Below, piece after piece: positions 1-3,468 of a DNA stretch of 5,617 nucleotides. The translations under genes and the position numbers were made by a program. Source of the stretch: Lachnoclostridium sp. UBA739 (GTDB lineage Bacteria > Bacillota_A > Clostridia > Lachnospirales > Lachnospiraceae); assembly GCA_002297865.1 (NCBI GenBank), contig DBKX01000403.1, positions 6,090 to 11,706 on the forward strand, written 5' to 3'. Position 1 is the stretch's first letter. Every line of letters starts with the position of its first letter. The notes beneath the pieces are model-generated. The model was given only the letters and a program-made list of their open reading frames with translations. It was not told the DNA's origin and did not search any database.

Positions 1-457
1 AGAATATGCGTTAGATGCATACAATTTAGCAGCGTTTGGTTACATAACAAAACCAATAGATGAAAAGAAATTTGAAAGGCTATTTGCACGTGCGTTGGTA
101 CAGCTTAGGGGGATTAACGCAATCAAGAATAATCATAACATTGAGTTTGTTGCCAATGGGAAAAAGCAGCTTGTAAAAGAAAAAAATATTTTATATGTCG
201 AAAAGTGTGGACATACTGTGAACATTGTTACAGATAAGCAAACCTTTTGTGTGTATGATTCTTTAAAGAATCTAGAAGGAAAATTTTCGAATATTTTTTT
301 ACAGGTGAACAAAGGTACATTAGTAAACCGTAATTATATAACAGAAATAACAAATCAGACTATTTTTATTACGACAGGAAAAAGTTTTAGTATACCAACT
401 CGTAAAGTAAAAGAAGTACAAGAAGCATATAAGAAAACAGCAGAAAATGAATTGTAA
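1..457 (+). CDS. LytTR-family response regulator, 3' part (5' end outside window)
   Basis: Two-component response regulator that would bind DNA through a LytTR domain after phosphorylation of its receiver domain. The frame is open from base 2, and 151 residues are visible. Residues 1-32 are the end of a CheY-like receiver: the segment AFGYITKPID carries the conserved Lys-Pro (K17, P18) that follows the last beta strand. From about residue 46 to 148 is a LytTR domain, with the typical core FLQVNKGTLVNRNYITEI and a closing SIPTRKV strand. Family members are usually about 235-250 residues, so the N-terminal part with the phospho-acceptor Asp is missing because the window begins inside the gene; it is not a truncation. 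A TTG at base 95 could be taken as a start, but the receiver homology upstream shows it is internal. The partner kinase is not in view. Family assignment is firm; the signal and targets are unknown. Confidence 0.93.
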   Translation, partial: EYALDAYNLAAFGYITKPIDEKKFERLFARALVQLRGINAIKNNHNIEFVANGKKQLVKEKNILYVEKCGHTVNIVTDKQTFCVYDSLKNLEGKFSNIFLQVNKGTLVNRNYITEITNQTIFITTGKSFSIPTRKVKEVQEAYKKTAENEL

Positions 458-526: not shown

Positions 527-572
527 TAGAATTACATTTTTGAAATAATGTTGACTGAAATTGTAATATCGA

Positions 573-601
573 TTGTGAGGAAAAGTAAACCGGGGTATAA
601 T
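573..601 (+). promoter_or_regulatory. Sigma-A-type promoter for the candidate non-coding RNA
   Basis: TTGTGA (573-578) and TATAAT (596-601) are separated by exactly 17 bases. The -10 box is a perfect consensus and the -35 box matches at four of six positions. Transcription should start around 607-609. No protein-coding frame with a ribosome site follows for over 500 bases, and the first strong downstream signal is the terminator at 1039-1074, so the promoter appears to serve an untranslated RNA. Confidence 0.72.
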
Positions 602-607
602 AAAGTC

Positions 608-1074
608 ATTCAATAAGACATGAGGTAACAAGTAATCAGGTTTTAAGAAACGGTATTTATTTCATTCCCCCCCTAAATTTGAGATAAGATATCGACTTGA
701 ATACAACTTATGTTTTAGGATTACCAGAACACACAATCAGATGACGCAGTAAAAGTACATAAGAAGAATCTAGATATCCCCTAACGAGAAAAATACGAAG
801 GATAAGTTTGAAGAACAAGGTGGCTATTGTGCGCAAATAGTCAACAAAAGAGGAGCAAGCTTTTACATTTTGAGGTGTAATAGCACGAAATCCATAGCTG
901 TAAGAAAATAGGTCGGAACTTACAGGAGAGCAGTCTAAAGAGAAAATGCAATTAACACAAAGAACTTGACATACCAATGAGGAACAGTTTTAAAAGACAC
1001 AAAAGTTAACATGTACATATTAGAAATGAATAAGTATTAAAGGGGAGGCTTTCTGAATAGAAGGTCTCCTTTTT
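608..1074 (+). ncRNA. Candidate structured non-coding RNA of about 465 nt, class unknown
   Basis: What is seen: a strong promoter ending at 601, an intrinsic terminator at 1039-1074, and no credible ORF between them (every ATG-started frame on the plus strand is stopped within about ten codons). The predicted 5' end pairs with the region just before the terminator in nested order: 608-611 with 1028-1031, 612-615 with 1018-1021, 618-622 with 1010-1014, and 626-629 with 1005-1008. Further helices fit inside: 652-656 with 971-975; 696-699 with 816-819; 705-711 with 802-808; 715-719 with 780-784; and local hairpins 821-843 (8 bp), 859-884 and 898-925 (7 bp, perfect). The plus strand is A-rich (128 A against 63 T in 701-1000, counted by hand), as in large RNAs with purine-rich loops. 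I see no RNase P, tmRNA, SRP, T-box or group II intron signatures. It could be a large structured RNA or a trans-acting regulator. A long leader of the aminotransferase is less likely, because that gene has its own promoter. Confidence 0.6.
1039..1074 (+). terminator. Intrinsic terminator of the candidate RNA
   Basis: Bases 1039-1054 pair with 1059-1074 over 16 consecutive pairs, four of them G-U, around a four-base GAAT loop. The 3' side ends in a run of five T. It lies 78 bases upstream of the aminotransferase start codon and upstream of that gene's own promoter, so it closes the RNA unit rather than the protein gene. Confidence 0.88.
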
Positions 1075-1091
1075 AAATTTCTATAAATATC

Positions 1092-3285: not shown

Positions 3286-3344
3286 GTTAATAAGTATTAC
3301 ATATCTCTTCCGAGCTAAACACCCAATGAGTGTATGTCTATGTA

Positions 3345-3374
3345 AGTATATCATATGCATAGAAATGTTTCCAA
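3345..3374 (-). promoter_or_regulatory. Promoter of the dehydrogenase gene (minus strand)
   Basis: Read on the minus strand, TTGGAA (3374-3369) is followed after 18 bases by TATACT (3350-3345). Transcription would start near 3338, leaving a leader of about 65 bases. An imperfect inverted repeat, ACAC/GTGT (3319-3322 and 3330-3333), falls inside the early leader and might form a small hairpin or operator. Confidence 0.55.
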
Positions 3375-3385
3375 AACAGAAAAAG

Positions 3386-3414
3386 TTGATATTACAAAAG
3401 CTATCTGTTATACT
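3386..3414 (+). promoter_or_regulatory. Promoter of the envelope gene cluster
   Basis: TTGATA (3386-3391) and TATACT (3409-3414) are separated by 17 bases, with transcription expected near 3421. It is divergent from the dehydrogenase promoter; the two -35 boxes are 11 bases apart, so factors binding there could affect both units. The leader to the ATG at 3469 is about 48 bases. Confidence 0.68.
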
Positions 3415-3468
3415 AAATAAGTTAGTTAGAATTTTTAGGAAAAAGATTGATAGGTATAGGATGAGTAA

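Follow-up and report, generated by a model that had tools for sequence, protein, structure and literature searches.

The window analysed here, a stretch of 5,617 nucleotides from Lachnoclostridium sp. UBA739, a bacterium of gut or rumen type, very likely contains, as judged from its sequence, a real RNA gene at positions 607-1076 that is conserved and structured and belongs to no described family. The best explanation that our analysis offers is that this RNA would be a two-component-controlled antisense regulator with a C-rich loop, working like RNAIII, VR-RNA or SpoZ; its functional kind is already known and its sequence family is undescribed. In the form of this explanation that we prefer, and to which we give slightly better than even chances, the non-coding RNA would be switched on by the adjoining orphan AgrA-like regulator and its C7 loop would pair with G-rich ribosome-binding sites in the manner of RNAIII. 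We infer that the RNA is transcribed, that the adjoining regulator activates it and that it pairs with targets. Agr-like effector RNAs are known for few species, and a conserved RNA with a C-loop, next to the gene of an orphan AgrA-like regulator, provides a concrete candidate in a Lachnospiraceae relative. The following features are discussed, with L001 standing for the corresponding locus of the sister species [Clostridium] polysaccharolyticum:

2-457 (+): orphan AgrA-like LytTR response regulator, C-terminal part, cut by the window start (Pfam LytTR, E 3.7e-15)
541-567 (+): candidate operator, TGAAAT (541-546) and TGTAAT (562-567), 21 bp apart, read from the alignment
573-601 (+): predicted RNA promoter, TTGTGA-17-TATAAT, from a motif scan, kept in L001
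607-1076 (+): RNA gene of ~470 nt with predicted start, based on synteny, conservation, structure and the lack of an Rfam match
614-717 (+): 5' domain with P1 (614-624/707-717), P2 (633-637/694-699) and P3 (652-664/680-693), based on independent folds, shuffles and double changes
667-673 (+): C7 run (C6 in L001) of the apical loop, a proposed pairing seed, within the conserved block TCATTCCCCCC
775-781 (+): another C-rich motif, TATCCCC in the window and TATCCC in L001, conserved in the alignment and possibly a further seed
822-842 (+): hairpin A, 7 pairs (13/13 cells paired, 1 double change)
859-884 (+): hairpin B (7/7 pairs kept, 3 changed on both sides)
898-925 (+): hairpin C, CUGUAAG/CUUACAG with a conserved CGGAA in the loop (7 invariant pairs)
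1037-1076 (+): intrinsic terminator with an 18-pair stem, from a terminator scan, kept in L001
1092-1120 (+): promoter-like TTGCTT-17-TACAAT of the aminotransferase, read from the sequence and the L001 alignment

The probable RNA gene and its counterpart in a sister species

The predicted promoter consists of a -35 element (TTGTGA, 573-578) and a -10 element (TATAAT, 596-601) separated by a 17-nt spacer. With 10 of 12 consensus matches and an aligned counterpart in L001 (TTGTAA-17-TATAAT), the near-consensus promoter that a first-pass annotation of this DNA had placed at 573-601 was borne out, in a window where promoter-like sites show no excess (22 vs. a shuffle mean of 23.4). The terminator that this annotation had given as 1039-1074 with 16 pairs is likewise present and kept in L001, but it extends over 1037-1076 and has 18 pairs; the stems of the other three of the four terminator-like sites in the window comprise 5 pairs each. 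On the plus strand, the window's list of open reading frames holds no frame of at least 40 aa between 457 and 1153, in agreement with the earlier statement that this region carries no protein gene. On the minus strand, the frames 708-977 and 320-631 have no Pfam or NCBIfam match at E ≤ 0.001. The RNA, in which the annotation had recognised no known class, did not match Rfam 15 (4227 families) at E ≤ 1. For this reason, ROOL, GOLLD, OLE and raiA, likewise large structured Firmicutes RNAs that had been suggested as possible relatives, were not found at this threshold and the suggestion is unsupported.

Of 80 retained loci that encode an aminotransferase relative, one, L001, matched the RNA region collinearly at the DNA level. 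The order of LytTR regulator, RNA and aminotransferase is the same there, as are promoter and terminator, and the hairpins are kept as well, so that the conservation in relatives that had been called for was found in the sister species. The aminotransferase of L001 is 94% identical to that of the window and the regulator 88% over the 151 aa present in the window, compared to 57% identity (205/358 aligned positions) for the RNA, in which the longest identical blocks are CGGAACTTACAG (12 nt) and TCATTCCCCCC (11 nt). No protein frame is kept between the two RNAs. A DNA search of 397 genomes of the family (E ≤ 0.001) gave matches in four, G001 and three genomes with short matches of 27-35 nt (G152, G213 and G393). 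In a pattern search of G001, CATTCCCCCC was found at 5 places, one of which is the RNA locus and the other four of which lie within open frames, and the motif of hairpin C, when up to three mismatches were allowed, at 29 places, of which 8 were examined (the locus and seven places within open frames). Since these open frames comprise 240-890 codons, the places outside the locus were taken as coding.

The gene 3' of the RNA encodes, according to a profile search, a PLP-dependent aminotransferase with its start codon at 1153, and the terminator ends ~77 nt upstream of it, a distance at which the RNA could be a 5' leader or attenuator of this gene with a conditional terminator at 1037-1076. We consider this reading improbable, as a promoter-like element follows the terminator in both species (1092-1120 in the window, TTGCCA-17-TACAAT in L001), no antiterminator was seen and no riboswitch family of Rfam was matched. 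The element, which is missing from the promoter-scan list because its first hexamer matches at 3 of 6 bases only, suggests that the RNA is not a leader of the aminotransferase.

Local folds and the C-rich loop

Folded alone, window positions 607-720 and L001 positions 3344-3449 adopted an identical three-part hairpin with the C-run in the apical loop (z -2.56 with 6/200 shuffles as stable for the window, z -3.93 with 1/200 for L001). These single-sequence folds are independent of the alignments A2 and A3, of which A3 puts the 3' arm of P1 differently near its end; pair counts refer to A2. In this alignment, all pairs of the 5' domain are kept (27/27), three of them with changes on both sides, and the domain differs from column shuffles with a z of -3.70 (4/1000). 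The sequence of the apical loop, CCCCCC(C)UAA, lies inside one of the longest conserved blocks. The predicted unpaired probability of the C7/C6 run is 1.0 in both the window and L001, and that of the TATCCCC motif at 775-781 only 0.5.

The internal hairpins of the first-pass annotation (821-843, 859-884 and 898-925) were confirmed and are all kept in L001. Hairpin A was aligned separately; its one double change is too little to test, and its shuffle control was not significant (249/500). The segment holding hairpins B and C reached a z of -3.68 (6/1000 column shuffles), with hairpin C representing sequence conservation without covariation because its seven pairs are invariant. Taken together, the 5' domain, hairpin B and hairpin C have 41 pairs, which are kept in 82 of 82 cells of A2, six of them with changes on both sides, vs. 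33-45% kept in slid controls; the count is favoured by the fact that the structure was derived from the same two sequences, and covariation is thin because these are the only two orthologous sequences. Neither the middle segment (z +0.36) nor the 3' segment (z -1.59, 66/1000) was significant, and all 397 alignment columns together gave a z of -2.40 (2/200).

A closing helix between the predicted first nucleotides (608-629) and the bases just before the terminator (1005-1031) had been the core of the structure proposed earlier. It does form in the single-sequence minimum-energy fold of the window (12.7 expected pairs), where it is favoured over the local fold by 1.6 kcal/mol at full length (-89.9 vs. 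-88.3 kcal/mol) and the pair probability of P1 is ~0.1. However, the 5' strand of the window pairs better with local segments starting at 679-695 than with its closing-helix partner (-13.9 vs. -9.1 kcal/mol), and 12 of 87 overlapping internal segments do so at least as well as that partner (shuffle p 0.04). The best partner of the 5' strand is the local one in both RNAs, and the equivalent ends of L001 pair no better than chance (-5.9 kcal/mol, p 0.67), for which reason the closing helix was rejected as a conserved fold. The comparative evidence, as far as sequences go, speaks for a local hairpin domain at the 5' end (614-717) with a C7 loop rather than for a 5'-3' closure. In the species of the window, the RNA may switch between P1 and the closing helix. 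The earlier idea of a self-contained structured RNA with a promoter and terminator of its own is supported by the conservation in L001 and the compensatory changes, but the architecture differs from the one proposed.

In the sister species, the RNA gene contains a tandem array of 16/32-nt units (CAAAAGA...) at 3718-3839 of L001. The array is absent from the window and was thus rejected as a common feature of the RNA. An open frame of 86 aa runs over these repeats and, together with the fast divergence and a z of only -2.01 for the fold of the whole window RNA (3/100 shuffles as stable), it could be taken as a sign that there is no functional RNA and that the hairpins arose by chance in an AT-rich spacer or decayed gene. 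This is quite improbable in our judgement, given that the 86-aa frame has neither a counterpart in the window nor a Pfam match, that the 16-nt repeat unit does not keep the reading frame, and that promoter and terminator are conserved along with a structure that shows compensatory changes. Rather unlikely, in our view, is also a structured non-coding RNA with another job, such as a protein sponge or scaffold or a member of an unrecognised large class, next to which the LytTR gene would lie incidentally. The missing Rfam family, the CGGAA loop of hairpin C, the most conserved hairpin, as a possible protein site and the repeat array inside the L001 RNA would agree with such a role, but the window has no array, the C-run belongs to one of the longest conserved blocks, and regulator and RNA occur together in both species.

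The orphan regulator and known regulatory RNAs

According to the explanation that we prefer, the orphan AgrA-like LytTR regulator encoded just upstream would activate the promoter at 573-601 and the transcript, 607-1076, would stop at the terminator of the RNA gene. The hairpin at its 5' end would present an unpaired C7 loop, and perhaps also the second UAUCCC motif, and the C7 loop would block the translation of target mRNAs by pairing with their G-rich ribosome-binding sites. C-rich seeds fit any strong ribosome-binding site.

The regulator is called an orphan AgrA-like protein because no kinase or AgrD adjoins the L001 copy, which has thiamine genes upstream. The regulator had 22 matches among 5.8 billion proteins searched, 14 of them full-length at 72-87%, followed by one fragment (91% over 59% of the query) and a drop to 34%. 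Close orthologs with genomic context were found in 1/395 genomes at E ≤ 1e-60, and in 2/397 and 1/392 at E ≤ 1e-45. A second genome, G055, encodes five regulators at 36-43% identity, each followed by a small peptide that passes the NCBIfam TIGR04223 (AgrD) cut-off (5/5); in G001, the peptide at locus L127 passes this cut-off and the one at L128 has no AgrD match. Both genomes have two AgrB genes each, and for the two regulators tested, those at L183 and L184, the gene upstream was confirmed to encode a GHKL kinase domain. In a tree of 37 regulators, from which L150 was left out, the clade of the window, represented by L001 and four protein relatives, falls within a group of 18 rows (92/99) alongside regulators of G001 and G055.

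As a predicted operator of this regulator, the TG(A/T)AAT pair at 541/562 is suggestive only. In the alignment, the L001 region contains TGTAAT twice with the same spacing of 21 bp. In a test of repeat spacings, 21 bp was not conspicuous. A third candidate half-site at 521 is present in the window only; an operator with three half-sites (p 0.014/0.005 in the window vs. 0.55/0.62 in L001) was rejected as a common feature.

In the available text of the cited sources, staphylococcal RNAIII is described as binding ribosome-binding sites via C-rich loops (PMC2837412) and LytTR-type regulators as driving RNAIII, VR-RNA, VirT and VirU (PMC7602753, PMC10602386). The window RNA resembles RNAIII, as portrayed there, in being a large RNA (514 nt for RNAIII) beside a LytTR-type regulator and in its C-rich hairpin loop (PMC7602753, PMC2837412). 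The C7/C6 run is apical in the domain folds, with a predicted unpaired probability of 1.0 in window and L001, and the adjoining AgrA-type LytTR regulator is grouped with regulators of AgrD-bearing loci. Unlike RNAIII, the window RNA matches none of the Rfam models (E ≤ 1, 4227 families) and shares no small hld-like (delta-haemolysin) frame with L001, and its regulator is an orphan to which, judging from the L001 context, agrB, agrC and agrD are not adjacent. The Rfam entry of Staphylococcus aureus RNAIII is RF00503.

SpoZ of Clostridioides difficile is, by the description in the available text, also a large RNA (528 nt predicted, ~560 nt on northern); its activator RgaR has no adjoining kinase gene and acts via direct repeats whose critical Gs, at -51 and -72, are 21 bp apart (PMC10602386). 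It differs in its copurification with Hfq and in a proposed antisense action on a small ORF nearby, and that text does not mention a C-rich loop (PMC10602386). VR-RNA of Clostridium perfringens, as outlined in its source, is similar in being a 386-nt RNA driven by VirR and different in that its pairing leads to cleavage and stabilisation of the colA mRNA (PMC7602753). For C. difficile, a paper from 2013 states in its available part that a divergent RNAIII transcript had not been identified (PMC3754575). In the literature, with subscription papers mostly outside the scope, we found no report of a Lachnospiraceae RNA of the RNAIII-like kind, of a LytTR-linked small RNA or, judged by title, of an autoinducer-linked RNA.

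Two further matches were noted. An open frame at about 1500 of L137 (G001, contig C15) holds AGGGGGGGAATGAT, an almost perfect complement of the C-loop block that is conserved in the L001 RNA; as a candidate target site of that RNA it is possible but unsupported. Window positions 3312-3421 gave a sub-threshold match to the FdoG1 thermometer (23.3 bits vs. a gathering score of 50) that is probably due to chance.

C-runs at related regulator loci

The genomes G001 and G055 supply parallel loci at which a pairing of regulator and RNA can be checked. Downstream of the regulator at L132 lies a 12-pair hairpin whose loop contains CCCCCC, at L150 a terminator-like hairpin has a loop with CCCCC, and C5 runs occur downstream of the regulators at L126, L183, L185 and L186. 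All six runs are predicted to be mainly unpaired (0.8-1.0), and the two C4 runs at L184 have values of 0.6 and 0.68; for these seven loci, the RNA ends used in the calculation were cut by hand. The regulators of L126 and L185 are 50% identical and both loci hold ATTAAGCCCCCTT; the 13-mer common to them was matched in 91/2000 simulations.

In an unselected test of all regulators, a sense-strand C5 run in the downstream gap was found for 4 of 14 regulators in G001 (1.4 runs expected, P 0.058) and for 2 of 5 in G055 (0.45 expected, P 0.076), the run at L186 being excluded since its gap is interrupted by a frame of 100 aa or more. Because the excess over all regulators examined is marginal, we rejected C-run frequency as grounds for a strong claim. 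Among 29 regulator loci of other genomes (L097-L125), many of which have little or no gap, none has a C5 run in the downstream gap, and on the regulator tree the trait is unclustered (6 changes, 500/500 shuffles as low). We regard the parallel loci as leads and not as proof. It appears somewhat unlikely to us that agr-type quorum sensing in Lachnospiraceae commonly acts through effector RNAs with C-rich loops, several AgrA-like regulators in two genomes, whether orphan or at AgrD-bearing loci, each having an RNAIII-like RNA of its own; our estimate is the lower because C-runs lend no support outside G001 and G055. If true, RNAIII-type control would reach well beyond the staphylococci, with several regulator-RNA pairs per cell.

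A few observations at these loci concern other elements. On the minus strand of L132 in G001, 9667-9738 matches a group II intron above the gathering score. The AgrD-bearing loci L183 and L184 of G055 have a 23-nt block, GCTTTTAACCCCTTACCCCTTTT, in common and a similar small protein downstream. At 5596-5664 of L150, three 23-bp repeats (GTAGACAG...) follow the gene of an orphan LytTR protein; the autocorrelation peaks at lags of 23 and 34, and the repeats are perhaps an array of regulator sites.
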